Notes under the pieces: model-generated
Told to the model about the DNA's origin: nothing
Database searches by the model: none
Seen by the model: the letters and a program-made list of their open reading frames with translations, nothing else
Assembly (NCBI GenBank): GCA_030710605.1
Contig: CP092882.1
Location: 17,294,316-17,358,315, forward strand
Length of the DNA stretch: 64,000 bases
Source of the DNA: Cordylochernes scorpioides
Lineage: Eukaryota; Arthropoda; Arachnida; Pseudoscorpiones; Chernetidae
Reading direction: 5' to 3'
Position numbers and translations under genes: made by a program
Shown: positions 4,239-61,790 of the stretch, piece by piece
Layout of the letters: every line of letters begins with the position of its first letter
How positions within the stretch are numbered: the stretch's first letter is position 1

Positions 4239-6593
4239 TCAGTTACTGCTATCTTTTCGGAGTTTATTTAGATTTTCTGCGAGGATGGTTCCTAAAATTA
4301 GGAGAAGTTTTATAAATGCTTGTCCAAAATTAAAAACTGCCTCTTGTAGTTCGAAGATTTTCTGAGCGGGCATGGTATATATAAACAAGTAATTGATGAA
4401 TAAAATTGGAATACAGTTGTATGGCAGAAGTAACAAACAAAGGATGAAAATCAGATGAAAAATAGGGTATTGCCCCATGTTCGTCCACATTTTTGTAACT
4501 GGGGACTCTGAAATATTTGCTTGAACCTTATAAATTGTAGAATTTGAATGATTGGTAGGTTCGCAGTTTTCCTGTTTGATATCTTTAGGGAGTGTTGTGA
4601 TATGATTGAGCTGGTTGTCAGGTTTACAGTTCTCCTGCTTGATCGTCAATGGTTTTATTAGAGATATGTCGGCGGTAATTGGTTTAGGTTGAGATGTGTG
4701 ATCTTTTCTCTGACGTGGATGTGGTAATTTTGGCATTATTTGTGTTGTGTGTACGCTGTGCTTTATGTACGAATTTTGTTTTGTTTGGGTACCTGTGTCG
4801 GTATTTTTACGTGCAGGTTGTTTGTATTCATCGATTCTTCTAGCGAATCGGCAGGTGGGGCAGGTTTTTACCTGTTTTGCGATGTCTTGTGTCATGTTCT
4901 GCCAATAATATTGTGCTGAGATGACCCTCGTCATCTTGGAGATGTTTGGATGGTGGTGTTGAGTGTGTACGGACTTAAGGAGTCTGGTTGTAAGTGAACT
5001 TGGGACTATAGTTTTAAGTACTCCTTTTCGGGAGACGGTGCGCAGTTTATTGTGATCTATAGTCACGCGAGATTTTCCCGGTGGAGAAGACTGTTGGCTC
5101 TGTATGAGTGGCGCATCTAGAAAGCCACAAAATGGGATACGAGTTCCAATGCCCGTTTCATATTGTTGTACTCCATTTATGCTACGGACCTCATATTCAT
5201 ATCTTGACAATCTTAACCTCCATCGAAACAATCTGCCTGACGGAGCTTTGATCTCTTTCAACCACTGCAATGCGGGATGGTCAGAAAATATTGTAAACTT
5301 TCTGCCATTTAGACAGGTGCGGAAATTATCCACACTTTCCACAATGGCTAGGCATTGTAGTTCCAAGTCTGAATAATTTCGCTCGTGACTACGTAGAGAT
5401 CGGCTGAAATGTTGAACGGTGTATGTCTTCCCATCAGGGTAGACTTGTTTAAGAACGCCTGTAATGCTGAATGTTGAGGTGTTACAGTACACCTGGCATG
5501 GCAGACCTTCCTGGTAAAGGTGTAATGTGGGGTGTGTGGTAAGGTTTTCTTTCAGGTTAGTGAACGCTTTCTGGCATTCGTCATCCCAGACCCACATGAT
5601 ATCCTTTTTTAGAAGGTTGATAAGTGGCGTCCGCAAGCGGGCGTGGTCTGGAATGAACTCTTTATAGGTGTTCACAGCTTTTAGGAAAGATCGCAAGGCT
5701 TTTCGATTGTGTGGTTGTTTGGTGGCGTGAATTTTTTCTATGTTTTGTGTAGACGGGATGATTGTATTATTCTTAACGGTTGTGCATGCGCTTGTTTGTC
5801 GTTGTTGTTGTCTTTTGGCGTGCGTGTTGCGTGTGTTGTGCGGATTGTGTGTGTTACCGTTGTGTGACGACGTATGGGTGCGCGTGTTGTGAGGTACATT
5901 TGCGTGTTTATGGCGTTGCGAAGTATGGTCATGTGTGGATTTTGTGTGGTAAGTGGGTGAGCTGTGTCGGTGTACGGACACTTTTTTGGGCATTATTGGA
6001 ATTGTAGGTTGGAGTCGTGGTGGTTTTACATGTTGTGGGCATATAGTACTGGTAATTGGGTTGAGTGAAAAGTTGCGTGGTGTGAGATTAGAATGGTGGC
6101 ATGTAAATATTGGAGGTTTGGGCAATGAATGCAGGCAAGGGTTTCCATGTGTGAAAGCTTTGGGTGCTGTGCGAGTCCTTTGGGACAGGTTTTGGCCTAG
6201 CCCGTGCTTGCATTCATTTGACACATGTTTAAAGTGGTAGATAAGATTAGACAATGGGACGCCAAGTTGGAAAATAGTGCCGCGATTATAATTTAGTTTT
6301 AATTTATACTGATAAAGGGTTTTTAAGGTAAGAACTCCAAATGGCAAGGATGCATTTACCACGTGGAAGTTCTCTCTACGGGTTATTTGGCCTATTGTCA
6401 GAGGGAAAGTTAAATGTCCTATTATTTTCGTAAAACTATTTAGGGTGGATAGATCAAGGGAAGGTTTTTTAATACTTAAATTGGGAAGTTGTGCTTTTAA
6501 TCTATTGTATAAATGATACGGCAATATGTTCGAACCTGCGTCTGGTTCAATGAGAAAGGTACATGGTAGGTCCTGGGTCAGATACAAGTCCAA
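4239..6593 (-). CDS. Chimeric retroelement polyprotein, 784 aa, no RT core
   Basis: The ORF has recognisable Ty3-type pieces but not a complete Pol. Residues about 1-110 resemble a retropepsin, with EPDAGSN where DTGA or DSGA is usual, so catalysis is doubtful. Residues about 200-300 are rich in His, Thr, Asn and Arg and occupy the place of the RT palm; no YxDD is present. Residues about 300-460 match the RT connection and RNase H (RSLRSHERNYSDLELQCLA, FSDHPALQWL), but the first catalytic Asp is replaced in YCNTSTF. Residues about 540-580 carry an integrase HHCC finger ending CPTC. The DDE core is missing. Near residues 708-740 there is a hydrophobic run (FILCLLLLPYNC) that could be a membrane segment or signal sequence. 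The frame is open despite these losses, so this is either a young internally deleted copy or a retained chimeric protein. Confidence 0.75.
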   Translation of the reverse strand: MDLYLTQDLPCTFLIEPDAGSNILPYHLYNRLKAQLPNLSIKKPSLDLSTLNSFTKIIGHLTFPLTIGQITRRENFHVVNASLPFGVLTLKTLYQYKLKLNYNRGTIFQLGVPLSNLIYHFKHVSNECKHGLGQNLSQRTRTAPKAFTHGNPCLHSLPKPPIFTCHHSNLTPRNFSLNPITSTICPQHVKPPRLQPTIPIMPKKVSVHRHSSPTYHTKSTHDHTSQRHKHANVPHNTRTHTSSHNGNTHNPHNTRNTHAKRQQQRQTSACTTVKNNTIIPSTQNIEKIHATKQPHNRKALRSFLKAVNTYKEFIPDHARLRTPLINLLKKDIMWVWDDECQKAFTNLKENLTTHPTLHLYQEGLPCQVYCNTSTFSITGVLKQVYPDGKTYTVQHFSRSLRSHERNYSDLELQCLAIVESVDNFRTCLNGRKFTIFSDHPALQWLKEIKAPSGRLFRWRLRLSRYEYEVRSINGVQQYETGIGTRIPFCGFLDAPLIQSQQSSPPGKSRVTIDHNKLRTVSRKGVLKTIVPSSLTTRLLKSVHTQHHHPNISKMTRVISAQYYWQNMTQDIAKQVKTCPTCRFARRIDEYKQPARKNTDTGTQTKQNSYIKHSVHTTQIMPKLPHPRQRKDHTSQPKPITADISLIKPLTIKQENCKPDNQLNHITTLPKDIKQENCEPTNHSNSTIYKVQANISESPVTKMWTNMGQYPIFHLIFILCLLLLPYNCIPILFINYLFIYTMPAQKIFELQEAVFNFGQAFIKLLLILGTILAENLNKLRKDSSN

Positions 6594-7182: not shown

Positions 7183-8138
7183 TGTAATATGATGATGTTG
7201 TTATTACACTATAATATTTGATGTATTACACTGTTGTAGAATCCTGTCGACTTAACCGTTCTGTGGCAATATCGTTGCGGGGTTTCTTATTGTTGGATGC
7301 GAATGGTGAGATTTGGTTGAAGCGCAGTCGTTGAGTGGTAAGTGAAGCACACAGTTAGGAATAATCAGGACACATGATGAGGTTTGAAAATAAAAGGCAA
7401 CTGGATTGGAGGGAAGAAGGTTTGAGAAGGAGCGGGTTTGATTGTTCCTTATCTGATCACATGGCGGTGATTGACATAGCTATGAGCTGAGAGAGAGATC
7501 TCTAGAACAGATGTTACCTTGGTGGGAGCAAGTCGAAGGCTGATCCGAACTCGGTGGGAGCCAAGTCGCTACTGCAGGTGTTGTTCCTATGAGAGCGAAA
7601 ACCTAACTGACCATCCTTGCCTTTCGATTTAACACCAAGACTCCGTTTCTCTCTGATTGGTTGAGAGATGATCACATGCTTTTTCCCTATTGGTTGACCT
7701 ATTTAGATGCTATCTTTTGATTGGCCCGCGGCTTTCCTTGATGAAAGCTGTGGTCTGCTTGATAGGAAGTGTCGAGTGCTATTTTGACTTTATTTACTTC
7801 CGTGTTATCAAATACGTCCTATCTTGGGTCGGAAGTATGGGGTGTCTCTATACTAATATAACTTCTGTGGATATTGGATACGTCCTGTTTTGTCAGGAAG
7901 TATTGAGTGCATCTTGGCTAAAATAAGTTCTGCGGTCACTAGAGACGTCCGGTCTCTGCCCCTGCAATATTGACACAGGGGTGCCCAGAATAGTCGTGCC
8001 AGCCTTAGGTCTACTTCCTATATCTTAATGCTACTTGCTTCCCTCCAGTTACCTTGTTCTTTATTAAGTCTTCGAAAATCATACATGGTACATACATAGT
8101 GGGTCGGGGTTGCATTTAATTATATACAAATTATGACA
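7183..8138 (-). repeat. LTR of the 6.6-kb element (sense 5' LTR)
   Basis: It has the same ends and length as 1532-2487. It is followed by TGTATATAAAT, completing the TGTA target duplication. The left arm of the surrounding inverted repeat (near 600-640, reverse strand) preserves the uninterrupted site. Confidence 0.88.
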
Positions 8139-10830: not shown

Positions 10831-11031
10831 AAATCGGTTGTGTGTAACTATGAAAGACATCCAGGAATTCATGTAAATTATATATGACAAGCTAGAAAGA
10901 ATGTCCACGGAACATGGTATCGTTTCACAGAGTCTAGCAACAAGGGTGTAACCACTAGCCAGCATAATGGGAAAATTTAATTAAGCCATGGATTGTTACA
11001 GCGCATCCTCAGTGGAAATTCCATTTTCTGT

Positions 11032-11735
11032 TCTACCAATAGCGTACGTCGGTCGTGATAATCATGGAAAACATAAGTAAACCTTGCATAATCTCTGCAA
11101 CAGACAGGAAATAGGGATGTGCGAGCCATTTTACCACCAATAGCGTGCGTAGGTCGTGATAATCATGGATAGCAGAAGTAAACCTTGCATAATCTCTGCA
11201 ACAGACAGGAAAAAGGGATATGCGAGCTATTTTACCACCATTGGCGTGCGTAAGTCGTGATAATCATGGAAAACATAAGTATACCTTGCAGAATCTCTGC
11301 AACAGACAGGAAATAGGGATATGCGAGCCATTTTACCACCATTGGCGTGCGTAAGTTGTGATAATCATGGAAAACATAAGTATACCTTGCAGAATCTCTG
11401 CAACAGACAGGAAATAGGGATATGCGAGCCATTTTACCACCATTGGCGTGCGTAAGTCGTGATAATCATGGAAAACATAAGTTTACCTTTCAGAATCTCT
11501 GCAACAGACAGGAAATAGGGATAGCGAGCCATTTTACCACCAATAGCGTGCGTAGATCGTGATAATCATGGAAAACATAAGTTTACCTTTCAGAATCTCT
11601 GCAACAGACAGGAAATAGGGATAGCGAGCCATTTTACCACCAATAGCGTGCGTAGATCGTGATAATCATGGAAAACATAAGTTTACCTTTCAGAATATCT
11701 GCAACAGAAAGGAAATAGGGATATGTGAGCCATTT
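11032..11735. repeat. Satellite, period about 101 bp, 7 copies
   Basis: The landmark GTCGTGATAATCATGG recurs at 11052, 11153, 11254, 11355, 11456, 11556 and 11656. Each unit also has CTCTGCAACAGACAGGAAA. The last two intervals are 100 bp because one base is lost. Short minus-strand frames across it are artefacts of the repeat. Confidence 0.9.
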
Positions 11736-11954
11736 TCTAATGATTTTTTCAACTAACGATTTACTTCTGACCCTGAAGGGATACATAAGAGAAAAAAGAA
11801 GACAAAGAAGAATATAGACCAATGACCACAAGGACTGGAGTGTATAAAGCTTCAAACTGTTAAAGAGGAAGCCACAAGAAGTATGTAGACCAATGACCTC
11901 AAAGACAGAAGTGAAGTAAGCTACATGCTGCTAAAGAAAAAAGGACCAAGAGTA

Positions 11955-14268: not shown

Positions 14269-14724
14269 ATACCTCCCTATACAATCTTTGACCGAGATAT
14301 CCGCAGACCTCCCTCGAACAATAAAAAATCAATTAGCACCCACCCACCTCTTATCAGCGGACATGACCGGAATATTCTCTGTTTGAGTGAGAGAGGTTGT
14401 ACGTATTGAATTGCGATTCCCTTTCTATTCAAGTCTAAATGACAAAATTATGTTTTTGTAAAAACCTCAATGATATATTTTCTACCGAACTTTTGACGCC
14501 TTACTACATAAATAATTCAAACTGTTGATTTTTTAATTCTGTGTTTAATACTTTAAAAAATATTTATAAACGTATATAGAGAACATATTAATACCCTAGT
14601 TTTTAAAATAAACATGGAAGTAGAAGAGAGAAGAGTGTGGGCAGTTAAAGAGATGTTGGCAAGGGGGTAAAATATTGATTTTTTGAAAAAAATGAAAATA
14701 AATGTGCATCAAAATAGATTGATA

Positions 14725-16440
14725 TGGGTTTGGGAAGATGCATGAATGTGAATGTGGGTAAAGAAAAGAGGTGGGCGTGGGAATATAGATTTTGGCGTGA
14801 GAAGACAAAGAGATGTGGGCGTGGGAATATAGATATGGGCGTGAGATAACAAAGGAATGTGGGCGTGGGAATATAGATTTGGGCGTGAGAAGACAAAGTA
14901 AGGTGGGCGTGGGAATATAGATATGGGCGTGAGAAGACAAAGGGATGAGGGCGTGGGAATATAGATATGGACGTGAGAAGACAAAGAGAGGTGGGCGTGG
15001 GAATATAGATATGGGCGTGAGATAACAAAGGAATGTGGGCGTGAGAATATAGATATGGGCGTGAGATAACAAAGGAATGTGGACGTGGGAATATAGTTAT
15101 GGGCGTGAGATAACAAAGGAATGTGGGCGTGGGAATATAGATATGGGCGTGAGGAAACAAAGGGATGTGGGCGTGAGAATATAGATATGGGCGTGAGATA
15201 ACAAAGGAATGTGGACGTGGGAATATAGATATGGGCGTGAGATAACAAAGGAAAGTTGGCGTGGGAATATAGATATGGGCGTGGGAATATAGATATGGGC
15301 GTGAGGAAACAAAGGGATGTGGGCGTGGGAATATAGATTAGGGCGTGAGGAAAGAAAGTGAGGTGGGCGTGGGAATATAGATATGGGCGTGAGATAACAA
15401 AGGAATGTGGACGTGGGAATATAGATTTGGGCGTGGGAATGTAGATTTGGGCGTGGGAATATAGATATGGGCGTGGGAATATAGATATGGGCGTGAGGAA
15501 ACAAAGGGATGTGGGCGTGGGAATATAGATTAGGGCGTGAGGAAACAAAGTGAGGTGGGCGTGGGAATATAGATATGGGCGTGAGATAACAAAGGAATGT
15601 GGGCGTGGGAATATAGATTTGGGCGTGGGAATGTAGATTTGGGCGTGAGAAGACAAAGGGATGTGGGCGAGGGAATATAGATATGGGCGTGAGATAACAA
15701 AGGAATATGGGCGTGGGAATATAGATATGGGCGTGGGTATGTAGATTTGGGCGTGAGAAGACAAATATATGTGAATTTGGGAAAACAAATGTGGGTGTGG
15801 GAAAACAAAGAGGTGTGGGAAAACAAATGTGGGTGCGGGAAAACAAAGAGGTGTGGGAAAACAAATGTGGGTGCGGGAAAACAAAGAGGTGTGGAAAAAC
15901 AAACAAATGTGGATGTGGGAAAACAAAGAGGTGTGGGAAAACAAATAGATGTGGATGTGGGAGAACAAAGAGGTGTGGGGAAACAAATAAATGTGGATGT
16001 GGGAAAACAAAGAGGTGTGGGAAAACAAATAGATGTGGATGTGGGAAAACAAAGAGGTGTGGGGAAACAAATAAATGTGGATGTGGGAAAACAAATAAAT
16101 GTGGATGTGTGAAAACAAAGAGGTGTGGGAAAACAAATAAATGTGGATGTGGGAAAACAAAGAGGCGTGGGAAAACAAATAAATGTGGATGTGGGAAAAC
16201 AAAGAGGTGTGGGAAAACAAATAAATGTGGATGTGGGAAAACAAAGAGGCGTAGGAAAACAAATAAATGTGGATGTGGGAAAACAAAGAGGTGTGGGTGC
16301 GGGAAAAGAAATGTGGGTGTGGAAAACAAAGAGGTGTGAAAAAATAACAAAATTTTGGCGTGGAAAAACAAAGATGTGTGGGAATAAGAAGAAATTTGGG
16401 TGTGGGGAAAACAAAAGGTGTGGGAAAACAAAGAGATATG
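14725..16440. repeat. G-rich minisatellite, two related unit types
   Basis: From 14725 to about 15770 the plus strand repeats a 44-bp unit made of GTGGGCGTGGGAATATAGAT and GGGCGTGAGATAACAAAGG. From there to 16440 it changes to a 42-bp unit with GTGGATGTGGGAAAACAAAG and GTGTGGGAAAACAAAT. The units contain few stop codons, so long frames stay open (up to 615 codons on the minus strand in overlapping frames, and up to 182 on the plus strand). These encode only Pro/His/Phe/Ser-rich or Gly/Lys/Cys-rich repeats, and I do not call genes. Confidence 0.85.
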
Positions 16441-16539
16441 GAAGCTGGGAAGTGGGTCATGTGGGTCGATGGCGTAGGAAGATCCATCATGTGAAGAATG
16501 GAGGAAGTCTGAGAGGTGATGTGAGATAGTATGCAGGGT

Positions 16540-17220
16540 GTGATAAATTGTTCCACTCTAGATTCTACTCGTTGATTGGCTGCTGTGTCTACACCTCGGC
16601 AATTTGATTGGAAAATTGTTAGATAGAATAGAGGGGTGATAAATTGTCATACTCTATATTCTTCTCGTTGATTGGCTGCTACTTCTAAACCTCTGGAATT
16701 TGATTGGACAATTATTTGATAGAATGTAAGTGTGATAAATTGTACCGCTCTATATTCTTCTCGTTTATTGGCTGCCATGTCGAAACCTCTGGAATTCGAT
16801 TGGATAATTGTTAAGTAGAATAGAGACGGGTGTGATAGATTGTCACACTGGAAATTCGGCTCGTTGATTGGCTGTGGCATCCCTTTCTCGTTTATTTGAT
16901 TGGACAATTATTGATGGTATAAATAAGATTGACGCACACGCTCTATATTCTGCTTGTTTATTGGTTGAAGTATTCTGATCTCTGTAATTTGATTGAATAA
17001 ATAGTTATAATTGAGGGACTTGTTAGATTTACCCACTTTAAATTCTTCTCGTTTATTGGCTGCTGTATCTAAACCTCGAGAATTTGATTGGGTGTTTATA
17101 TACGAACGTATAAAATACCAAGCCATATATTCCAAAAATCCTGCGACTCTAATGAAAAACAAAACATTATCGATAAATTACGCATTCTATATTTTGCTCG
17201 TTTATTGGGGTACATGAGAA
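16540..17220. repeat. Tandem repeat, period about 97 bp, CCAAT-rich
   Basis: The landmark CTCGTTGATTGGCTG or CTCGTTTATTGGCTG appears near 16567, 16664, 16760, 16859, 16951, 17048 and 17195. Most units contain two ATTGG (reverse CCAAT) boxes, one in GATTGGCTG and one in TTTGATTGG. The last units are degenerate. Confidence 0.75.
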
Positions 17221-17569: not shown

Positions 17570-17790
17570 CTTCTACTGTCCTTACTGCGATACAAATATT
17601 GGGAGGGGTTGGTTTATCAGTGGTGAATCCTCCTTGCAGTTTCGCTTATTTAATCTACCAGACCGTTTTTTAGAGCTCTAATACTATATTGTGCGATTCT
17701 GTTTATATATGCTGCGCTGAAGTGTGGAAACTGAGTTATGGTTTTTTATCAAACTATGATATTCATGCACCAAAAGAGGCATCACTTCTA
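17570..17790 (-). mobile_element. Short element with permuted-HHR motif, decayed copy
   Basis: The minus strand has GCGAAACTGC, TTCACCACTGAT and GCAGTAAGGACAGTAGAA in the order typical of the family. The CTGATGA box and helix 1 are lost. Confidence 0.5.
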
Positions 17791-18599: not shown

Positions 18600-19540
18600 A
18601 TCATCCGATTGGTGCATTCTTCTACTAGGTGTGATGATGATAAATCCTTTCAGTGAATATTTTATTATATCTTCTGCTATTTTCTCTCTTTAAGAGAGAT
18701 TGCGAATCTTTTTTTTTTATTTCTCCACTAGATGTGTCGACTTGAATAAATAAAGATTTGATGTGTTTGTGTCATTTATGGAGAATATAAAATCTTAAAT
18801 AGCATGTTGAATTTCTCTATTTTATATATCTATTTTTTATCATGAAGGAAAAGTGTATTATTTTGTAAAAAAAAAAGACTAGCAGGAATATTTTTAATTC
18901 GCTTGGAATTTGTTTTTTTTTTTTCACCATTACTATTACACTTTTTAAAAATGTACAGATTTTATATATGTATGTGTTTTTGTGTGTATGAGAGAAGGTA
19001 GGAAGAAATGTATAGGAGTCGCTTAGAAACATTTATACGAGTCGATTAGAAAACAAACCTTCGTTGTCTTTTGATATTTTCTTAATTTTATAAAAATGGA
19101 ATAATTAATATTATTCTTAATCAATAAAGTTCTTCGATCAATAATTTTTTTTCGAAAACAGTGATTTCATATACTTTCCTAATCAAAAAATTAATACACC
19201 CAAAACTTTAAAAATTTAATGTATCAGAAAGCTTTAATTTTTCTCATTTTTTTACGGTAAAGACAGCATAGATAGAGCTCCTATACTCCAGACAGCACAG
19301 AACCCAACAACAAGCCTCCAGGTCATATATTTTATATAGAGTTTTTAATACCACCAGGAAAATACAAAGAAGTTTCAATAATTGCAAAATCGTCTCAAAA
19401 GCTTTTTTACGAACTAATCACCTGATTTAAATTTCAATAAACGTTGTTACAAAGATAACCTTAAATATAGTCGGCAATTATCATTTATAACTTTATCAAA
19501 ATTCTAAACTATTATAGACGGGTATGATTCTTTTTAAAAT
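18600..19540. other. AT-rich, no recognisable feature
   Basis: Homopolymer T and A runs and short chance frames only. Confidence 0.4.
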
Positions 19541-19544
19541 AAAA

Positions 19545-19850
19545 CAATTTCTACTGTCCCTACTGCAAGGGAAAAATTAATGGGAGGGCCTGGCTCATCA
19601 GTGGTGAACCCTCCCAGCGGTTTCGCCAGTTTAATCTACCATTCTTTTTAAAATAAAACAATTTCTACTGCACTTACTGCAATGGAAAATTAATGGGAGG
19701 GCCTGATTATAAATATATAATATGCTTCGAGCAATCGCTCTTCCACACATAGGCATTTGCAGTAAGGGCAGTAGAAATTATTTTATTTAAAAAAGAATCA
19801 TACGCGTCTATAATAGTTTAGAATTTTGATAACAGATGGCGCGCTAATGC
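19545..19850 (-). mobile_element. Permuted-HHR short element, one intact motif plus fragments
   Basis: The 48-nt motif at 19582-19629 (minus) is intact: CTGGC, GAAACCGCT, GGGAGGG, TTCACCACTGATGA, GCCAG, G, CCCTCCC. A second partial copy (19640-19705) and an inverted 3' part (19750-19850, ending near ACAGATGGCGCGC) follow. Confidence 0.65.
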
Positions 19851-20029
19851 ATTATAATTTATAACTTTATAGATCTTTTTATTTGGTATCTAATAAATCT
19901 CTTTGGCTACCTAATATTTATTTTAAGTCGAAGATAAACTCAAAATTGTACCAGAAGAAAACTAGTTTTATCTTTCTCTTAGAATAGTCGTGCTAATAAA
20001 ATAAAAGAAATTTTCGTTAGAATATGTAA

Positions 20030-25324: not shown

Positions 25325-25605
25325 TAATTCTACTGTCCTCAAAGCTTATATCCATAGTTCTTCTAAAATACCCATTCCAAGAGTCTAGCATCAGTATCAC
25401 TATAAAAGGAAGATCGAAAAATGCAATATAACAGCGGTTAGTTAGATTAAACTGGCGAAACCGCTGGGAGGGTTCACCACTGATGAGCCAGGCCCTCTCA
25501 TTATTTTTTCCATTGCAGTAAGGGCAGTAGAAATTGTTTAATTTCAAAAAGAATCTTACGCGTTTAAAATAGTTTAGATATTTGATAAAAAGGAAACAGA
25601 AGGTC
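25325..25605 (+). mobile_element. Permuted-HHR short element, near full length
   Basis: A 5' part (CAAAGCTTATATCCATAG) leads to the 48-nt motif at 25452-25499. Then come CCATTGCAGTAAGGGCAG and a 3' part (TTACGCGTTTAAAATAG). In this copy helix 2 is GGGAGGG with CCCTCTC, a G-U intermediate between the two fully paired variants. Confidence 0.7.
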
Positions 25606-26899: not shown

Positions 26900-28060
26900 T
26901 ATTCAAATGTAAAATATACGTTTTATTTATTAAAATAGGAATAGTTTAGTATTGTTAGAAAATTTATATAAATAACTTGATAAATTAAATATATTTTCCA
27001 TTGTTTGAATATAAAAAGAAAGAAATATATAACATGATTTTCAATTTTTAAAAACTATTCGATAAACATTTTTATGAAACGCAAAAATAACAACTCATTT
27101 AAATTATAAATAATTTTTCAAATTAAAATTTCCTAAAAAAAACAAGAATTTAGCAACTTTAATAATAAATAATATATGTAGAAAAACCTATTCTATTTTC
27201 TTTTTTTATTTTACTTTGCAGAAATATGGTTTCAAATTAAATATATTATAACCCTAATAATTCTATAGAAATTTAGAAATTATATATTTTTATCATTTAT
27301 ATATATAAAAGGATAAGAGATCCAGACTAATTAAATATAATATAACCCTAATAATTCTAGATAAAGAGCAATATAAGTAATTTAAAGTTAATACTATTTC
27401 CAAGATTTTTAAAAAATTCAAAAGATTTATCCTCTGGAAAGAAATTGACGTTGACAAATGAAGCGAAACAAGGCTCTGCAGATTTTTTTTTATTTCTTCT
27501 GGTAAATTCCAGGGTGTGTAGGCCACTTCCTATTGGACAACCCTCCATTGAGAGCGTCAAACGAATTCGATTTATCATATTCGTTTGGAAGTTTTTTTCT
27601 TCGTCGTCTGACAGTATTAAAAACTTGTGTTATTTTCTCGTCTGCCACGAAAATAAGATTTGATATTGAGGTAATATACGCATTTAGAATGGAAAAAACA
27701 CCAAAAATGTAATTATATGTAATAATATATAATTATATTTTTAACATTAATCATATTTTAATAGCATTTTATTTTAAATAAATACAATTTTAAGGACTTT
27801 TAATTTTATTTTTGTAAGATTTGCAAACAATAGTTTCACTCTTTTTTAAAATATATTTTGAATAAAGAAAACAGCATTATCAATACAGATATTACAGTTT
27901 GAAAAGCTTAACAATAAATATTCATTTTATTTTTATATTTGATTATTATATGAATTATTCCATATTGGTTACGCACCGTTAATTTAAAAGGCAATATATA
28001 TTTATAAAATATGATAAATTAGAAAATAATTTATATATAAATATCATTTACTGGCAATGC
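26900..28060. other. AT-rich, no recognisable gene
   Basis: Overlapping short frames on both strands at 27293-27663 look incidental. No repeat is identified. Confidence 0.35.
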
Positions 28061-28064
28061 GTTT

Positions 28065-28835
28065 CTTTTTTAAATCTCTACAGACCTTACTGCAATGATA
28101 TGATTTAATGAATGAGAGGGCTTGGCTCATCAGTAGTGAACCCTCTCAGCGGTTTCGCCAAATTAATCTCTAGACCGCTCTACTATTGTATTGGACTGGT
28201 TTTGTTATATACCCTGCGTTTTCTATGGAAGGCAGCTTAGGGGTGTTTAGTGAACTATGGACATAAGCTTATAGGTCTGTGGAGGTACATACATATAAAT
28301 CCGCTGAGAGGGTTCACTACTGATGAGCCAAGCCCTCTCATTCATTAAATCATATCATTGCAGTAAGGTCTGTAGAGATTTAAAAAAGAAACGCATTGCC
28401 AGTAAATTTATTTGTGTAAAATTTTAACGATAGAGGGCAATAAAATTTAATTTACTAATATATAATGGTTATAAAAACATGTTTTGCGCGGAAGAGCTTT
28501 GCTCGATGCAATACCTTGAAATTTATATGTATGTACCTCTACAGACCTATAAGCTTATGTCCATAGTTCACTAAACACCATTTAGCTGCCTTCCATAGAA
28601 AATGCAGGGTATACAACAAAACCAGTCCAATACAATAGTAGAGCGGTCTAGAGATTAATTTGGCGAAACCGCTGAGAGGGTTCACTACTGATGAGCCAAG
28701 CCCTCTCATTCATTAAATCATATCATTGCAGTAAGGTCTGTAGAGATTTAAAAAAGAAACGCATTGCCAGTAAATTTATTTGTGTAAAATTTTAACGATA
28801 GAGGGCAATAAAATTTAATTTACTAATATAAATAT
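28065..28835. mobile_element. Cluster of three permuted-HHR short elements
   Basis: A minus copy (28065-28290; motif 28114-28161) is joined head to head with a 5'-truncated plus copy (28298-28475). A near-complete plus copy follows (28510-28830; motif 28660-28707). All three have helix 1 TTGGC/GCCAA where present, and helix 2 GAGAGGG/CCCTCTC. The two plus copies share a near-identical 3' part ending in a GATAGAGGGCAATAAAA box. Confidence 0.75.
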
Positions 28836-28839
28836 CAAT

Positions 28840-30320
28840 AAATTGTTTTAATTAATATATCAAAAATGAATTATATTTTATATACGACATAAGAAAACCT
28901 TTTATTAAGACATAATCTTATACGAAGATTCACTACGGAGTCTGTAAAGGAAAAGGAATTTTTTAAAAGTTATTTAAATTCATTGATAATAATAAATATT
29001 TTATATACAGTAAAACCTAATTAAAACAACTAGTTTCATTACCGTATTTGTATAATAATTCCACGTAAAAATAAAGGAAATTAGTGAAAAATAATATATT
29101 AGAAATATAAGTTGATAAATGGAGTTGAAGAAAAAATCGTTTTAAAAATTTAATACCGACCTTATGATATATAAATGAAAAGATATCATACATTTTACAT
29201 ATACACTATTTAACAGCTTTGCAAGGATATTTCCATTCATTTAATCCTAAATTTTCCCGCCAATTACCAACCAATCAAATTATCGTTCCTATAGGTCAGC
29301 AATATTGACACACGTCACTTCCTGATTGGAGGAAATAAAGGAATTATCGGGAGTCTGTATCTTCTGCAATATAGCTATAAATTAATCCACAATATATGAC
29401 ACCGATTATTTGAGAATTTGCTATATAAATATACCATGTTTATATAGTTAATAAAAAATATATTAAAATATTTGTATGAGAAACAAATAAAATATATCAG
29501 CATTATATATTAAAATAAATAAGTGGTGTTTTTTTTATTCGATCAATTGAAAAAAAAAATCATTACTTTTCATACAAACTAATTTTAAACTTTAAATGTT
29601 AAGAAATATATATTTATATGAGAAATAAATAAAATTTATTAGCATTTATATATAAAAAGAATAAAGTGTTTTTTTTTTAAATTCTATCAATAAAAAAATC
29701 AATACTTTTTTATATACAAACTAATTTTAAAATTTAAATATTAATAAATAATTCTATGAGAAACAAATAAAATATATCAGCACTATTTATAAAAAGAAAA
29801 AGGGGGTTTTTATTCAATAATATTTTTTTTTCAAATAATATTCAAAAAAAAAATAATTTTTATACAAACTAATTTTCAAATTCAAATGTTAATAAATAAT
29901 TCTAATATTCTATTAAATTAACTAAACAAAAGAATATACTTATGAGTGAAATTTAATTGTCAATTTATTATTTTTCAATAGTAAGAATGCAAATTTATGA
30001 TAACCTTCATAATATTAAATAAAATTATTTTATTTTAAAATATTATAATCGATTTTTATTAAACGAACTAATTAGAAATTGTTGACTTTGCTTAGACTTT
30101 TTAAAGATACAGATTCCAAGAAGATTAATCAAACATTATTGATTTACAAGAGAGAGAACAAAACTTATAACATAGTAAATAAAGAGAATTTTCTTTTACA
30201 GTTAGCGCCTATATACTTGTGATCATACACATATACTCTGTGAGTACAATTAATTAATTAAACTTCAAATAAATATACAACAGAAATTAGTGCTAAAATT
30301 TATGTTTTATATAAAAATAT
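28840..30320. other. AT-rich, no recognisable gene
   Basis: 29470-29920 holds loosely repeated AGAAACAAATAAAATATATC and CATACAAACTAATTTT blocks, about four imperfect units. Nothing coding. Confidence 0.4.
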
Positions 30321-32553: not shown

Positions 32554-33099
32554 ATATAAATAAACGAATAAAACTCCGCCTCACGCCAAACTATTACAAA
32601 AATCTTAAATATATTCTATACAAGATTGTAGTACGGATTCAAGTTTAAAACACAAAAGAATCCGTTAAATATATCTTCCAAATATTCCTTATATCTACAT
32701 GTTATAATTTGAAAATAAACATTTACAAAAAGAAAGATAGAGGGAGGGAGTTAACGTTTTGTTAATTTCTTTATGAGAATGATAGTTACTTAGAAATATT
32801 CAAATAGGAAAAAGATTAAGGCAAATAGTATCTTTTATTTGAGGTGTTGCAATTTTTGAGAAAAAAACCTGCTCTTCAACGGATAAATCCAAAAACAAAT
32901 GAAGATAGATGTTATCAGACATGGATAAGATGGATAAGCATATATAATCAGAATAAAGAAACTACCTTAGAGTGGGAGAATTCCGACCACACCAGTCTCC
33001 CCTGGACCCGTGGAATATTTGACCAAATTCTGGTCCAAGGTGACTAACGTGGCAACGGTATCTATTTTCCAATGAAGACCAAAACCGATATCTCCTTTG

Positions 33100-33525
33100 C
33101 AACTGCTGTGATAGAGATGCATGGAGACACCTAAGGCTCTTCATTGGACACAACAACAACAGAAAATTGACATGGATCCAGAACAGCAGCTTTACACACC
33201 CAAGATAATGGACATTGCGACTGCTGTAATAGAAATGCATGGAGACATCTAAGGCTCTTCATTGGACACGACAACAACAGAAAATTGACATGGATCCAGA
33301 ACAGCAGCTTTACACACCCAAGATAGTGGACATTGCGACTGCTCTGATAGAGATGCATGGAGACATCTAAGGCTCTTCATTGGACACGACAACAACATAA
33401 AATTGACATGGACCCAGAACATAAGCTTTACACACCCAAGATAGTGAAAATTGCGACTGCTGTAATAGAGATGTATGGAGACATCTAAGGCTCTTTATTG
33501 GACACGACAACAACAACAAAGAAAC
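33100..33525. repeat. Tandem repeat, period 118 bp, about 3.5 copies
   Basis: The landmark AGAAAATTGACATGG starts at 33161, 33279 and, with one change, 33397. Each unit has CAGCTTTACACACCCAAGAT, GATGCATGGAGACATC and an ACAACAACA tract. Short minus frames through it repeat the same peptide and are not called. Confidence 0.85.
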
Positions 33526-42442: not shown

Positions 42443-42459
42443 TATATATATATATATAT

Positions 42460-42799
42460 TGTTGCACCAGGTTGCGGCTTGGCAGACTCTTCAGCCTGGA
42501 TTCTCTCCTGTGCTGGGTCCTGCATCTTACCAGAGCGTGTTTCAACCATCCTAGAAATTTATAAAAGGGAATAACGAGATAAGTCTTCTTTAAGTAGCCA
42601 CCAGAATCCTTTTTTTATTTTCTCACATCAAAGAGAGCAGTGAAGTCACAGTGTACCTAAATACAAATGATGATAAATTAATAATCTGTTTTAAATAAAT
42701 ATCATAGAATATTTTATATAAAAATAAATAAATATATAATTTAAATTTCAAATATATTAAAACTAATATAAGAAATACGCCATTAATCATTATGTAACA
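42460..42799 (-). repeat. 3' LTR of the Ty3/gypsy element
   Basis: 340 bp, co-linear with 47306-47645. The pol stop codon lies inside it (42783-42785). The purine-rich GGAGAGGGGGAAG (42800-42812, sense) sits immediately upstream as a polypurine tract. Confidence 0.93.
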
Positions 42800-45700
42800 C
42801 TTCCCCCTCTCCAGAGGTCGTCACGTCCTCGTGATTGACCTCATCAATTCTTTCAAAATAGGGTTTGATTCTTGAGACATGGACAATCAATGGGTCTTGG
42901 CCAGGATTATCTTTTGGTTCAATTAAGTAATTTACGTTGGACAGCTTCTTTAATATTCTATATGGGCCAAAATATTTTCTCAGTAGTTTCTCACACTTTC
43001 CTATTTTCCTAATTGGTGTCCAAACTGCTACTAATTCTCCTGGTTCGTAGCTTCTTTCCATGTGTTTCTTGTCATAGTTCTTTTTCATTCTTTCTTGAGT
43101 CTTTATTGTGTTGTTAATAACTAATTTTCTTGTTCTGTTTATTTTGTCTAAGTGATGTTTTATGTATTCATCATAATCATCTTTGTCAATGTCCACCGAG
43201 ATATTCCTGTCGTCCAAAAGAGACGTGGGTTCTCTTCCAAACATCAGGAAAAAGGGAGAATATCCTGTGGTTTCCTGAATTGTAGTATTGTAAGCGTGAG
43301 TGATGAATGGGAGTATTTCGTCCCAATTTTTCTGATCAGTGTTCACATACATACTGAGCATATTGATCAATGTTCTATTTAACCGCTCTGTCAATCCATT
43401 AGTCTGGGGATGATAGCTCGTTGTGAAGCAATGTTTAATCTTGCACGTTTTCATCACCTCTTTCATTAAATTACTGGTAAATTGAGAGCCTCTGTCACTA
43501 ATAAGATATTGTGGGGCTCCGTGCCGAAGAAAAATATCCTCTACTAGAAATTTAGAAACTTCTTTCACTGTTGCTTCCGAGACTGCTCTTGTTTCTGCAT
43601 ATCTAGTGTAGTAGTCCGACAGCACGATTATCCATTTTTTACTGTTTTTCGTAGATGGTAGTGGACCAACAAAGTCAATTCCAATTCTTTCGAAAGGAAA
43701 GTTGGCTGGGGGGATGGGCTGTAGTAGTCCAGAAGGTAATTGGTTTGAGCCTTTCCTACTTTGGCAAAGGTGACACGTCTTAACGAATTCTGAGACATCC
43801 TTTAGCATGGATGGCCAAAAGTATTTACTCTTTATTCGGTACATGGTTCTGGCGACGCCCAGATGGCCATTCGACATATGGTTGTGATATTCTTTCATAA
43901 TTTCTCTCTTTTTATTCTCTGGAACCACAAGCAACCACGCCCTGCCTTCAGGGTTCGGGTTTTTCTTAAAGAGGCATCCATCTTCTTCTTTAAAGTTTTG
44001 CGCAATTGATCGCCTGCTTCCATTAAGGTTTTTCTTAACACTTTCGATAAATTTATCCTCTTCGTCTGTTATTTGATTTAAAAATAGCCTTTCAAAATCC
44101 TCATCCCAATCAGTTTCTGGTAAGGGCCCCCTAGATAAGCCATCGGCGTCCAGATGCTTCTTTCCCGATTTATGTATTATATCGAAGTCATATTCTTGAA
44201 TTTTCAATGCCCATCTTGCCAATCGACCTGTTGGATCCTTCAAGTTTTTGAGCCAGCATAAGGCGTGATGGTCTGTTACTATTTTAAAGTGTCTTCCATA
44301 AAGGTAGGGTCGTAATTTTGACATTGACCAGACAACGGCCAGACATTCTTTTTCAGTGGTTGAATAATTTTGCTCCGCTTTACTTAGGGTACGACTCAAA
44401 TATGAGATCACCTTCTCTTCACCACCGATGTCTTGGACAAGTGTTGCACCTATGCCGATGTTGGACGCATCAGTATGAACATAAGTAGGTGCATTTGGAT
44501 TGAAGTGACCTAAAATTGGTGGACTTAATAGTGCTGTTTTTAGGGTTTGAAACGCTTCCTCTTGTCTTTCTGTCCAGGTAAATGATACACTTTTTTTTAT
44601 AAGGTTGGTCAAAGGGTCAGCAATTTTTGAAAAGTCTTTGATAAATTTTCTATAATATGAACACATTCCCAAAAAGGATTGTACTTCTTTGACCTTTTTG
44701 GGCCGAGGAAAATTTCTGACAGCTTTGATGTTATGTTCCGCGGGTTTTATACCATGTTTGCTCGTTATATAGCCGAGAATCTCCAATTCTTCAAAAGCAA
44801 ATCGGCATTTTTTGTCGTTTAACCTTAAATTAGATTCACGAAAACATCTAAAAACAGCTTCAAGTCTTTTGAGGTGCGTTGGAAAATCCGGGCTATATAT
44901 GATAACATCATCCAGATAACACAAACAAATTTGCCATCTCAGATTTCCAAGCATATTCTCCATATTTCTCTCAAAGGTAGCAGGCGCGTTACAAAGTCCA
45001 AAAGGCATCACGTTGAATTCATATAATCCATGCGCTGTAGTGAAAGCTGTTTTCTCTTTGTCTCTTTCTTCGACTTCAACTTGCCAATATCCAGATCTGA
45101 GGTCTATTGCTGAGAAGTGTGTAGATCCTTGGAGAGTATCCATAACTTCGTCTATTCTAGGGATCGGATAGACATCTTTTACCGTCACATTATTCAGTTT
45201 TCTGTAGTCCACACAAAATCTGTATTTACCATCTCGCTTCTTGACCAATATTACTGGAAAAGACCAGGGGCTAGAAGATGGCCTAATTATGCCTTCTGTA
45301 AGCATCTCGTCAATTTGCTCTTTTATAATATCTCGTTCTTTAGCACTTACCCGGTAAGGCTTGTGTTTAATTGGCTTCGCGTCTTCTGTGTCTATCCGAT
45401 GTTTTGCCAAATTGGTTCTCCCTAATCTCGATGAAAAAAGATCTCCATACCTTTCTAAAACTTGTTTTAACTCCTTCTGTTCCTTTGGTGAAAGATTTTC
45501 GTTTATTTGTAATCTAGGTTCTTCGTTCTTTTCTACCTCTCTTTCTCGACTCACATTTATTTTCGCTGGACTACTTCCAAAAGCCAATGTTTGGTTTTTC
45601 ATTATTTTTAACGGTCGAGGATACGGATTAGTTATCCAGATATGTGTTTCCCTATTTATAACATTGATCAAGCTTCTTGCTAGACGAAGTCCATTTGTTT

Positions 45701-46256
45701 GAAACATTTTGCTGCTCTCTTCGATAATATATTCTCCATCCTCTGTTTCTACCAATGCCTTGATCAATTTCATGGAACATTCCGGTACAATGGAATCCTT
45801 GGCACTCTTTATTTTCAACATTTCAAAATTGATTTCGTCATGATTATTCGTCAAATCATATTTTATAGTTTCTTGCTTACAATCTATTTTTGCGTTCATT
45901 TTCTTAAGGAAATCTCTCCCAAGAATTAATGTCCGTAAATGCGTTTTCAATATCACAAAGTTGTGTGATAATGTTTCGTCATCAATTTTTATATTTAAAA
46001 ATATACTTCCTACCATGTCCAATTTTTTTCCATCGGGTCCTGCACAAATTTTTGCGAGTTTACTTATACCATGGCCTGTATCGAGGGCCGTTCTGAGGTC
46101 GACCACTGAGAGGTCAGCACCTGTATCAACCAAAGCTTCAAAAGTCCCTATCTTGTCCACATTAATTTTTAATTTGTATTTAGGGTCCAACTTCTTGATT
46201 CCGTTTATGGTCGACTTGCTTTGATTGACAGATTCAGGCGCGACGCTTAGTTTAAA
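42783..46256 (-). CDS. pol: Ty3/gypsy Pol polyprotein (by -1 frameshift)
   Basis: The pol frame has no ATG near its start. It is open upstream of codon TTG at 46190 back to the slippery site at 46250-46256, consistent with synthesis as Gag-Pol. Counting from 46190: protease with LVDTGADLS near residue 22; RT with YLDD near 424; RNase H with TDASN near 570; integrase HHCC finger near 766-806, DDE residues in IDFVGPLP (about 840), SDRGSQ (about 900) and TERLNRT (about 935); a GPY/F module near 1078. About 1,135 residues remain to the stop in the 3' LTR, a normal length for this family. No frame break is seen. The enzymes should act in reverse transcription and integration within particles formed by Gag. 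Confidence 0.93.
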   Translation of the reverse strand, partial: FKLSVAPESVNQSKSTINGIKKLDPKYKLKINVDKIGTFEALVDTGADLSVVDLRTALDTGHGISKLAKICAGPDGKKLDMVGSIFLNIKIDDETLSHNFVILKTHLRTLILGRDFLKKMNAKIDCKQETIKYDLTNNHDEINFEMLKIKSAKDSIVPECSMKLIKALVETEDGEYIIEESSKMFQTNGLRLARSLINVINRETHIWITNPYPRPLKIMKNQTLAFGSSPAKINVSREREVEKNEEPRLQINENLSPKEQKELKQVLERYGDLFSSRLGRTNLAKHRIDTEDAKPIKHKPYRVSAKERDIIKEQIDEMLTEGIIRPSSSPWSFPVILVKKRDGKYRFCVDYRKLNNVTVKDVYPIPRIDEVMDTLQGSTHFSAIDLRSGYWQVEVEERDKEKTAFTTAHGLYEFNVMPFGLCNAPATFERNMENMLGNLRWQICLCYLDDVIIYSPDFPTHLKRLEAVFRCFRESNLRLNDKKCRFAFEELEILGYITSKHGIKPAEHNIKAVRNFPRPKKVKEVQSFLGMCSYYRKFIKDFSKIADPLTNLIKKSVSFTWTERQEEAFQTLKTALLSPPILGHFNPNAPTYVHTDASNIGIGATLVQDIGGEEKVISYLSRTLSKAEQNYSTTEKECLAVVWSMSKLRPYLYGRHFKIVTDHHALCWLKNLKDPTGRLARWALKIQEYDFDIIHKSGKKHLDADGLSRGPLPETDWDEDFERLFLNQITDEEDKFIESVKKNLNGSRRSIAQNFKEEDGCLFKKNPNPEGRAWLLVVPENKKREIMKEYHNHMSNGHLGVARTMYRIKSKYFWPSMLKDVSEFVKTCHLCQSRKGSNQLPSGLLQPIPPANFPFERIGIDFVGPLPSTKNSKKWIIVLSDYYTRYAETRAVSEATVKEVSKFLVEDIFLRHGAPQYLISDRGSQFTSNLMKEVMKTCKIKHCFTTSYHPQTNGLTERLNRTLINMLSMYVNTDQKNWDEILPFITHAYNTTIQETTGYSPFFLMFGREPTSLLDDRNISVDIDKDDYDEYIKHHLDKINRTRKLVINNTIKTQERMKKNYDKKHMERSYEPGELVAVWTPIRKIGKCEKLLRKYFGPYRILKKLSNVNYLIEPKDNPGQDPLIVHVSRIKPYFERIDEVNHEDVTTSGEGEVLHND
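46247..46256 (-). promoter_or_regulatory. -1 ribosomal frameshift site TTTAAAC then TAA
   Basis: On the minus strand 46256-46250 reads TTTAAAC, with the gag frame split T|TTA|AAC, the ideal X XXY YYZ phasing. The gag stop TAA follows directly. Slipping back one base continues in the pol frame, which is open on both sides of this point. I have not identified a downstream stimulatory structure. Confidence 0.88.
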
Positions 46257-47395: not shown

Positions 47396-47645
47396 CCTAG
47401 AAATTTATAAAAGGGAATAACGAGATAAGTCTTCTTTAAGTAGCCACCAGAATCCTTTTTTTATTTTCTCACATCAAAGAGAGCAGTGAAGTCACAGTGT
47501 ACCTAAATACAAATGATGATAAATTAATAATCTGTTTTAAATAAATATCATAGAATATTTTATATAAAAATAAATAAATATATAATTTAAATTTCAAATA
47601 TATTAAAACTAATATAAGAAATACGCCATTAATCATTATGTAACA
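47306..47645 (-). repeat. 5' LTR of the Ty3/gypsy element
   Basis: 340 bp. Sense order is TGTTACATAATG at the start, an AT-rich U3 with a TATATAAAA candidate (47567-47559), then the gag ATG (47395), and GGTGCAACA at the end. The promoter call within U3 is weak because the region is AT-rich. Confidence 0.92.
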
Positions 47646-49024: not shown

Positions 49025-49400
49025 ACAAGTTCATGATAATCATGGTAGACAGAATCGGGGCGGAAAAGGGGTCCAATGTTGGTTTTTTTTGGTGATGGGA
49101 TGTCTCAGTATGTGGTTCAGGTAATGGGTGTTACTGGAATATGAGTTGCCTCTTAACTTCAGTGTTGCATATAAAAGCAGAATGATCCAATACAGTATTA
49201 GAACTCTAACGAATCGGTCTGCTAGATTAAATTGGCGAAACCGCTGGGAGGGTTCACCTCTGATGAGCCAATCCCTCCTAATATATATTTTTTCATCGCA
49301 GTAAGGACAGTAGAAGTTTGATTTATTTGTGAAAAAAACATTCACGTCTTTATGTCTTCATTTGTTATATATAGATGGCGCGTTATTTCTTTGTATTAAC
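49025..49400 (+). mobile_element. Permuted-HHR short element
   Basis: The motif at 49231-49278 has the longest helix 1, ATTGGC with GCCAAT. Helix 2 is GGAGGG with CCCTCC. The 3' part has CATCGCAGTAAGGACAGTAG and ends near ATAGATGGCGCG. Confidence 0.65.
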
Positions 49401-53540: not shown

Positions 53541-53745
53541 AGTACATCAATAATAAATAGTAGAAGTGCCATAGAATAGCAATACAGAAGAAACACATAA
53601 ACTACAGGAAAAAAAGTGTGAAATGGCAAAAATTGTATTATATTAGTGTTTAGGTATTTTATTTAATTATTTTTTGCATACATTTAGTTGTTTCAAAATT
53701 AATATAGTTTAAATAAATGAGTTTTAAAAATTGTAAAAAATAAAT

Positions 53746-53816
53746 GCATCGGCCGGGAATCGAACCCGGGCCGCCCGCGTGGCAGGCGAGCATTCTCGCC
53801 ATTGAACTACCGATGC
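53746..53816 (-). tRNA. tRNA-Gly (anticodon GCC)
   Basis: The 71-nt minus-strand sequence begins GCATCGG and ends CCGATGC, a perfect 7-bp acceptor. It has a D arm with AGTTCAATGG, the anticodon arm CTCGCCTGCCACGCGGGC with anticodon GCC, and a T arm CCGGGTTCGATTCCCGG with a perfect stem and B box. A TTTTTT terminator follows within about 10 nt downstream. It is close in sequence to animal tRNA-Gly(GCC) and looks functional. It decodes GGC and GGU glycine codons in the cytosol. Confidence 0.96.
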
Positions 53817-56370: not shown

Positions 56371-56489
56371 ATTTTGGTTATGTAAATTTTTCCTAAAAAT
56401 ATTATTACGTTCCAGAATGAATACTCAAATAAATAAATAAGATACATTTATATATTCCTAATTATCTCTCAATACAAGAGCTCTGAGAA

Positions 56490-56700
56490 GCGGTCTGGTG
56501 GATTAAATTGACGAAACCGCTGGGAGGGTTCACCACTGATGAGCCAAGCCCTCACAATATATTTTTCATCGCAGTAAGGACAGTAGAAGTTTGTATTATG
56601 TATAAAAGAAACATTCGTGCTTTTAAATCCTTTCATTTTATATGTATAGATGTCGCGTTATTGCTTTGTGACTATAAACTTTGTAGTAATTACTCTGTAC
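56490..56700 (+). mobile_element. Permuted-HHR short element
   Basis: The motif at 56508-56555 has TTGAC/GCCAA (one mismatch) and GGGAGGG/CCCTCAC. The 3' part has CATCGCAGTAAGGACAGTAG and ends near TATAGATGTCGCG. Confidence 0.6.
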
Positions 56701-56869: not shown

Positions 56870-57020
56870 TAGCGCGCCTTCTGTTATCAAAATTGGAAAC
56901 TTTTATAGACGCGTATGATTCTTTTTAAAAATAAACAATTTCTACTGTCCTTACTGGAATGGAAAAAATAATGGGAGAGCTGGCTCATCAATGGTGAACC
57001 CTCCCAGCGGTTTTGCAAGT
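56870..57020 (-). mobile_element. Permuted-HHR short element, decayed
   Basis: In inverse: GCGCGCCTTCTGTTATC, CTACTGTCCTTACTGG, GCTGGCTCATCA, CCCTCCCAGCGG. The GAAA box is changed. Confidence 0.5.
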
Positions 57021-58395: not shown

Positions 58396-58399
58396 TACA

Positions 58400-58814: not shown

Positions 58815-59215
58815 CAACTTGAGAGAGTTCACTACTGATGAGCCAAGCCCTCTCATTCAATAACTCATATCATTGCAGTAAGGTCTATAGAGACAATATT
58901 TGATGATATTTAAAAGAAGCGCATTGCCAGTAAATTGATTTGTGTAAAAATTTTAACGATAGATGGCAATTAAATTCAATTTTCTAAACTTCTACTGTTC
59001 TTACTGAGATGAAAAAATATTGGAAGGGCTTGGATCATCAGTGTTGAACCCTCCCAGCGGTTTCGCCTATTTAATCTACCAGACCGTTTCTATAGAGCTC
59101 TAATACTGTATTGGACGATTCTGCTTATATATGCTACACTGAAGGGTGGAATCTCAGAAAAGGTATTCAAAGAAACTATAGACATAAGCTTTTAGGACAG
59201 TAGAATTACATATAA
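58815..59215. mobile_element. Two permuted-HHR elements, tail to tail
   Basis: A 5'-truncated plus copy (58820-58985, CTACTGATGAGCCAAGCCC, ending in a GATAGATGGCAATTA box) is followed by a minus copy (58988-59215) with a decayed motif at 59021-59071. Confidence 0.6.
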
Positions 59216-61524: not shown

Positions 61525-61790
61525 TTGTCATTAATGTCCATAGTTCTTCTAAAATACCCATTCCAAGAGTCTAGCAACAGTATCACTATAAAAGGAAGTT
61601 CCAAAAATGCAATATAGCAGCGGTATGGTAGATTAAACTGGCGAAACCGCTGGGAGGGTTCACCACTGATGAGCCAGGCCCTCCCTTTAATCTTTCCATT
61701 GCAGTAAGGGTAGTAGAAATTGTTTAATTTTGAAAAGAAGCTTACGTGTTTAAAATAGTTTCGAATTTTGATATTAATGTGTGTCAACAA
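61525..61790 (+). mobile_element. Permuted-HHR short element, near full length
   Basis: The motif at 61638-61685 is fully paired: CTGGC/GCCAG and GGGAGGG/CCCTCCC. Upstream (ATAGTTCTTCTAAAATACCC) and downstream (CCATTGCAGTAAGGGTAG) parts match the 25325 copy closely. Confidence 0.7.

Follow-up and report, generated by a model that had tools for sequence, protein, structure and literature searches.

The window, a stretch of 64,000 nt (C20:17294316-17358315), was eukaryotic in content and held LTR retrotransposons. Two of these, Ty3-like by domain order, had direct repeats at 1532-1831 and 7183-7482 and at 42458-42757 and 47304-47603; in both elements the repeats were 100% identical over 300 nt, which marks them as recent insertions. 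An RNase H/integrase frame (4239-6593) lay in the first element, and a pol frame (42783-46190) and a gag frame (46247-47395) lay in the second. Positions 14661-16556 consisted of tandem repeats of about 44- and 42-nt period and contained a minus-strand open frame of 615 aa (14709-16556) with no Pfam match, and two other tandem arrays were located at 11014-11736 (~101-nt units) and 33097-33520 (~118-nt units). Two long palindromes with 0-1 nt between their arms were found at 55966-56135 (85-nt arms, 98% complementary) and 58399-58605 (103-nt arms, 90% complementary), and a tRNA-Gly(GCC) gene or copy was found at 53745-53816. The feature studied here was a short motif that recurred along the window. 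The preliminary description had reported seven copies of 48 nt, at 19582, 25452, 28114, 28660, 49232, 56508, and 61638, each with two crossing helices and hammerhead boxes in permuted order. All seven copies and their layout were recovered, together with the CTCTGATGA variant at 49232, the G-U pair in the second of the crossing helices at 25452, and the single mismatch in each helix at 56508. At up to 3 mismatches to GAAACCGCTN7TTCACNACTGATGA, the window contained 11 copies (Table 1), and 100 shuffles contained none. Three copies were intact in stem II, stem III, and a fourth helix, apart from an imperfection of stem I specific to their subfamily; one had single mismatches in two helices, and seven were truncated or decayed, as expected for copies of a mobile element.

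Table 1. Copies of the predicted ribozyme in the window and insertions that contain them
Feature	Positions	Strand	Predicted cut	Pairing and remarks
Predicted type-SGC hammerhead, intact, subfamily C	28642..28707	+	28648/28649, GGUC^UAG	III 6/6, II 5/5, fourth helix 7/7, stem I 5/6 with one A.A mismatch
Predicted type-SGC hammerhead, intact, subfamily C	28114..28179	-	28173/28172	Inverted partner of the 28642 copy
Predicted type-SGC hammerhead, intact, subfamily A	61619..61685	+	61625/61626, GGUA^UGG	III 6/6, II 5/5, fourth helix 7/7, I of 4 bp + A.C mismatch + 2 bp
Predicted type-SGC hammerhead, subfamily B	56489..56555	+	56495/56496	Single mismatches in II and in the fourth helix; stem I 7/7, with a G.U among its pairs
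Copy reported in the preliminary description, with its upstream block	25433..25499	+		Pairing kept in III, II, and the fourth helix (one G.U); alteration of the site block (GGTTAGTTAG) damages stem I
Copy with mutated stem I and one III mismatch	49213..49279	+		
Copy with homology starting at the predicted cut	19582..19641	-		Lacks the stem III 5' strand
Decayed copy	17601..17667	-		Core CTGATAA
Decayed copy	59022..59088	-		Mismatches in I, II, and III
Copy truncated within the stem III 3' strand	28298..28339	+		
Truncated and decayed copy	56972..57014	-		AAAA, TTGATGA
Composite insertion	28028..28878	.		Several unit copies, both orientations
Insertion with matches in both orientations	19493..19862	.		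14-nt direct repeat at its bounds

The upstream flanks were conserved among the copies and consisted of (A)GCGGTC or AGCGGTA followed by TGGTRGATTAAA or TAGAGATTAAT. The hammerhead parts missing from the 48-nt motif, namely one strand each of stems III and I and a GUC/GUA cleavage site, were found in these flanks, ~20 nt upstream. In stem III, AGCGG paired with the CCGCT located 3' of GAAA, and the U paired with the A of GAAA, the triplet being GUC or GUA. In stem I, TGGTGGA paired with the TTCACCA directly 5' of CTGATGA, the upstream strand pairing with ACCA or ACTA. Read 5' to 3', the motif started with the 5' strand of stem III, the UH cleavage site, and the 5' strand of stem I, continued with the 3' strand of stem II, GAAA, and the 3' strand of stem III, and ended with one strand of the fourth helix, the 3' strand of stem I, CUGAUGA, the 5' strand of stem II, and the second strand of the fourth helix. 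The fourth helix ran between the ends of stems III and II. The block order was site (S)-GAAA (G)-CUGAnGA (C), both in the window family and in a second, Penelope-like family described below. The core nucleotides were CUGAnGA, GAAA with A15.1-U16.1, and H at the site (GUC/GUA), from which individual decayed copies departed; A15.1-U16.1 appeared as U-A in 75 of 77 distinct sequences. All four helices were present, namely stems I, II, and III and the one that connects I with II; in subfamilies A and C, stem I had imperfections. As judged from its sequence, the window motif is a type-SGC non-circular permutation of the hammerhead, including its fourth helix.

According to the available text of Eckert et al. 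2023 (PMC10085705), the type-SGC hammerhead (the HRIMA-1 motif and its variants) is one of the non-circular permutations; a helix joins its stems I and II and is separated from stem III by 0-44 nt, cleavage occurs at the bond predicted, and none of the four helices is dispensable. The layout in the window, for which the preliminary description knew of no described RNA, is thus a published one. Both helices of that description are real, although its "helix 1" is stem II and its "helix 2" is the fourth helix between I and II. Its reading as type II order without a usable stem I did not hold, since the order is S-G-C and stem I is present once the upstream block is included; the site and the strands of stems I and III in that block had been overlooked. 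A type II hammerhead without stem I was ranked low. Its suggestion that the RNA is a selected pseudoknot, in which hammerhead boxes accompany two crossing helices that show compensatory changes, was upheld, but the two-state switch it offered beside this is not needed, because the published type, in the text available, needs its four helices together. That the two helices form an H-type pseudoknot or such a switch without any catalysis would agree with their crossing and covariation; yet the upstream strands of stems III and I, the GUC/GUA site, the GAAA and CUGAnGA boxes, and the copy boundaries at the cut site would then be unexplained, and we regard this as extremely unlikely. None of the hammerhead models of Rfam 15 matched either family's motif up to E 10, and at the gathering threshold no hammerhead model matched in the window. 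With its S-G-C order and no match to these models, the ribozyme falls outside the classical hammerhead types I, II, and III, and the Rfam hammerhead models are blind to both type-SGC motifs.

The repeat was extremely abundant. The genome searched (2.62 Gb, 24 contigs) contained 142,189 matches (70,956 + 71,233) to GAAACCGCTN7TTCACNACTGATGA at up to 2 mismatches and none to the reversed pattern, and 7 of 12 arbitrary 10-kb stretches (C2-C13, L017-L028) contained 11 profile matches to the repeat. A strict layout scan, which required the exact core and at least 4 bp in each of stems I, II, and III, was run on both strands of 352,760 fetched bases, most of which had been picked around copies. It yielded 54 sites, 52 of them with a fourth helix of at least 6 bp; the same scan of one strand of 20 Mb of simulated sequence found none. 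The upstream block was present in 127 of 182 profile matches. Seven of the 127 were dropped (six with upstream blocks that were non-homologous or too decayed, one with a long insertion), and the 120 that were kept represented 77 distinct sequences. Over 25 pairs in these sequences, 89.3% of the cells were paired, compared with a shuffle mean of 87.3% (maximum 88.0%) and 31.8-54.2% in slid versions, and 55 cells contained double changes, compared with a shuffle mean of 23.3 (maximum 33). Stem II was clear on both measures (0 of 500 shuffles). The percentage paired in stem I was reached by 5 of 500 shuffles, the double changes in stem III by 9 of 500, and those in the fourth helix by 2 of 500; the fourth helix was still 39-78% paired when slid, because its strands are purine and pyrimidine runs. 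Each taken alone, some helices are weak on covariation.

A tree built from the flanking columns only (119 copies) was used to place the changes. The large-clade compensatory changes were G-C to A-T at 9-46 in stem I (once), C-G to T-A at 20-59 in stem II (reconstructed twice), and G-C to A-T at 35-66 in the fourth helix (once), and a large-clade change at 12-43 repaired the A.C mismatch of stem I. In stem II, column 22-57 was broken in 42 leaves and restored in 37 of them, a pattern that we attribute to the reconstruction itself. Of the 198 changes anywhere in the tree that started from a standard pair, 123 broke the pairing. The compensatory change noted earlier is therefore real but came from few founder events, and the concern raised with it, that a few subfamily founders could account for the pairs, was justified: the covariation of the window family amounts to about four founder events, few per helix. 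Such founder-limited covariation together with decay is the pattern that would be expected if source elements were under selection and their copies decayed. These founder events and the many decayed or truncated copies would also suit a repeat that exists at the DNA level and has no RNA function, its apparent pairing coming from a few founder copies. Against this stand a second, unrelated sequence with all four helices and the full core, the piling up of 5' ends at the predicted cut, and the empty strict scan of simulated sequence, so that a purely DNA-level repeat appears very improbable. Since the covariation of the window family is founder-limited, the case rests on the independent second ribozyme and on the cut-site boundaries.

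Copies of the repeat frequently started at the predicted cut. Genome-wide, at the three offsets counted in subfamily A, 298 5' ends were found at +1, 56 at +4, and 20 at -5, and the reversed patterns gave none. The patterns required six non-consensus bases upstream, and the -5 pattern was three bases shorter at its far end; at 33% G+C the chance of passing the six-base filter is ~0.21 (+1), 0.16 (+4), and 0.13 (-5), differences that do not explain the ratios of 298, 56, and 20. The 298 ends were partly redundant, with distinct upstream hexamers at about half of 100 +1 sites listed (hand count), and some +1 sites were joints to an inverted copy. A gapped count at the fetched loci, which were mostly chosen around perfect cores, gave 54 copy ends between -24 and +12, of which 16 coincided with the base predicted to begin the 3' product or preceded it by at most 2 bases; three of the 16 came from one tandem array and two from one palindromic joint. 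An ungapped count placed 16 of 154 copies at -2 to 0 but suffered from indels at other positions; we relied on the gapped and genome-wide counts. In an array at C1:3060804-3061285 (L012 4804-5285), three of four 122-nt tandem units started exactly at the predicted cut and the first started 6 nt inside it, as if reverse transcription had run repeatedly from one internal point to the cut end of the RNA. Ends are expected at this position because self-cut transcripts would leave reverse transcripts that run out there, and the excess of copy starts at the predicted cut suggests cleavage in vivo.

The second ribozyme was found in a Penelope-like element. A search of the genome for GIY-YIG endonucleases, aimed at an autonomous partner of the window family, gave 17,015 first-look candidates, and 146 of the 150 that were scored matched. 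One locus (L089, C1:8987501-8991500) and its continuation (L094) contained a GIY-YIG domain (PF01541, 29.0 bits; cut-off 22.6) and, after it, a reverse transcriptase (PF00078, 28.9 bits, slightly short of the cut-off of 29.6). The endonuclease frame preceded the reverse transcriptase frame, the two forming separate, interrupted open stretches, and the reverse transcriptase frame of L094 had 4 weak relatives in a protein search. The presence of GIY-YIG and reverse transcriptase in one element makes it Penelope-like, and an endonuclease N-terminal of the reverse transcriptase is presumably the Naiad-type order; no literature linking Naiad with the hammerhead or with GIY-YIG was found. About 0.85 kb upstream of the endonuclease frame and on the same strand lay the motif GCAGUA^AUGGAG-UAA-GGGCC-GAAA-CUGC-UG-CUCAGGU-CUUCAU-CUGAAGA-GGCCC-ACCUGAG (^, predicted cut), with helices III (GCAGU/ACUGC), I (AUGGAG/CUUCAU), and II (GGCCC/GGGCC) and a fourth helix (CUCAGGU/ACCUGAG). 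It has the four-helix layout of the window family, with unrelated stem sequences. By eye, a possible further helix, GAGG(U)AUGGU / ACCAUCCUC, encloses this ribozyme at L089 2351-2435; no such helix was seen in the available part of the published type-SGC description.

At up to 3 mismatches the core of this ribozyme had 999 matches (479 + 520) genome-wide, and the reversed pattern had none. Pairs in the same orientation were 5,259, 5,265, and 5,175 nt apart (C1, C2, and C3, respectively), indicating units of ~5.2-5.3 kb, and both members of all three pairs were intact. The C1 pair flanks the genes of L089/L094, and the C2 pair surrounds the endonuclease match at C2:100479309; each terminal repeat of the Penelope-like element holds one type-SGC ribozyme. 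The site block was present in all 13 further copies, five of which were members of the pairs; these 13 had been picked by a perfect downstream core, so only the upstream block and the last helix strand provide an open test. The deviations among them were a mismatch in stem III (L109), in stem I (L105), and in the fourth helix (L103), and a G-U pair in the fourth helix (L104). In the partial stretches of six other endonuclease loci (L090-L093, L095, and L096) no type-SGC motif was found, and their terminal repeats possibly lie outside those stretches. The endonuclease followed the reverse transcriptase in L090-L092 and L095, and L093 resembled L090-L092; L096, a 72% relative of L089, had an N-terminal endonuclease. 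Exact scans of viral contigs with a 30-nt core of the window family and with the Penelope-like core gave no match each.

The window family belongs to a much shorter unit, which measured 371 and 372 nt at two tandem pairs and contained one ribozyme. No stop-free stretch longer than 63 codons was found on either strand of doubled A and B units, and the ~371-nt unit is apparently non-coding. By eye, a hairpin (GAAGAGC...GCTCGA) was seen upstream of a TATA-like stretch at ~28482-28513 of the window and in units at L009 ~5086-5110 and L010 ~4888-4915, and it may be a recognition element. A short non-coding unit with one hammerhead and some tandem copies is what defines animal retrozymes, together with a circular RNA of unit length and a type I hammerhead, in place of which the unit has the S-G-C order; the unit is therefore retrozyme-like in its working and not a retrozyme in the published sense. 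Direct repeats of at least 11 nt bounded 16 of 116 insertions, compared with 0.10 expected; these target-site repeats were 11-19 nt long, and 14 of the 16 insertions held matches in both orientations. The end points at 44 head-to-head joints (88 in total) were broadly spread, with 8 at -2 to +1. Insertions of this kind, tandem, in part inverted, and ending within the unit, resemble those of Penelope-like elements. The 371-nt unit and L089 had no meaningful similarity (best E 0.014), so we infer the autonomous partner.

The tandem units, 371 and 372 nt apart, would also allow the active ribozyme to form only between neighbouring units as a conventional type III hammerhead (S-C-G) that takes its site and CUGAUGA blocks from one unit and its GAAA block from the next, the order within a unit being incidental, and animal retrozymes can act as dimers according to the available text of PMC7229834. 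However, among the fetched loci, same-orientation copies with exact cores within 600 nt occurred only at L009, L010, L012, and the window. Moreover, the 7-bp fourth helix with its compensatory change would have no role in such a ribozyme, yet it is the validated fourth helix of type SGC, and the Penelope-like version repeats the four-helix layout in units ~5.2-5.3 kb apart. An inter-unit type III ribozyme is thus very unlikely. The best explanation as a whole, with a probability of about 0.9, is that a type-SGC hammerhead of ~67 nt, of which the 48-nt motif forms the 3' two thirds, is carried by a ~371-nt non-autonomous, retrozyme-like retroelement that inserts in the manner of Penelope-like elements. 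In the mechanism proposed, transcripts would cut themselves at GGU(C/A)^U, and the new 5'-OH end would be the point where reverse transcription of the template runs out. The enzymes of a Penelope-like element would act in trans on the ~371-nt units, some unit RNA may circularise, and the ~371-nt repeat would spread as a non-autonomous retroelement in head-to-head and some tandem copies.

Both families share with the published type SGC the block order, the core nucleotides, stems I-III, a helix that joins the outer sides of I and II, and a short I-II linker, here 3 nt in the Penelope-like version and ~5 nt in the window family; stem III and the fourth helix are separated by 0-2 nt, within the published range of 0-44. 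The published type-SGC ribozymes came from environmental RNA with unknown hosts, and their role was only guessed, as circular RNA replicons; in the text available, the only RNA placed in the genome of a known organism was a type-GCS candidate, with no type SGC there (PMC10085705). In contrast, the ribozymes here are in chromosomal DNA, in retroelements of very high copy number, and have their own stem sequences. Literature searches on non-circular permutation with hammerhead, type SGC, or HRIMA returned PMC10085705 and work on structure software only, and among titles on hammerhead and Penelope, or on retrozymes from 2022, none concerned SGC ribozymes in genomes (searches of open-access journal literature). 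As far as these searches go, the ribozyme is an added member of a published topology, and what is new is that it resides in chromosomal DNA, where a Penelope-like element and a massively amplified short unit carry it.

Animal retrozymes with type I hammerheads are repeats of 170-400 nt, and the axolotl has 126,247 type I motifs, as given in the available text of Cervera and de la Pena 2020 (PMC7229834); with this number already reported, high copy number is in itself not new. The ~371-nt units resemble these retrozymes in being short, with one hammerhead per unit, some tandem copies, more than 100,000 copies, and Penelope-like elements in the same genome; they differ in the non-circular SGC form of the ribozyme, which is not type I, and a circular RNA is putative here. 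The Penelope-like elements with hammerheads treated by Frangieh et al. 2024 (PMC11167929) share with the second family the combination of GIY-YIG and reverse transcriptase, the tandem copies giving terminal repeats, and a hammerhead near the 5' part; L089/L094 differs from them by an endonuclease N-terminal of the reverse transcriptase and a type-SGC hammerhead. The enzyme of the Anolis element acts on both DNA strands, cutting and extending each, and begins to copy at a point within the RNA (PMC11167929), and such two-strand cutting and extension would fit the head-to-head insertions found here. Hammerhead mutants of that element still insert in vitro, and RNA reads beginning or ending at the hammerhead cut were not found, both of which speak against a necessary role of the hammerhead there (PMC11167929).

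The genome of Cordylochernes scorpioides offers a test of what the hammerhead does in Penelope-like elements, since it records 5' ends at the predicted cut, in contrast to the Anolis element, for whose insertion in vitro cleavage is dispensable (PMC11167929). Tentatively, and at somewhat less than even odds, we propose that a Penelope-like lineage uses a pseudoknotted, non-circularly permuted hammerhead in place of the usual type I, that this topology was passed to hugely amplified non-autonomous units, and that the RNA copied into the genome owes its 5' end to the cut, from which copies and head-to-head joints beginning at the cut would follow. If this is true, some of the type-SGC ribozymes found only in environmental RNA would derive from such retroelements. 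The genome gives type-SGC hammerheads a home and a natural history, and their natural job is now testable.
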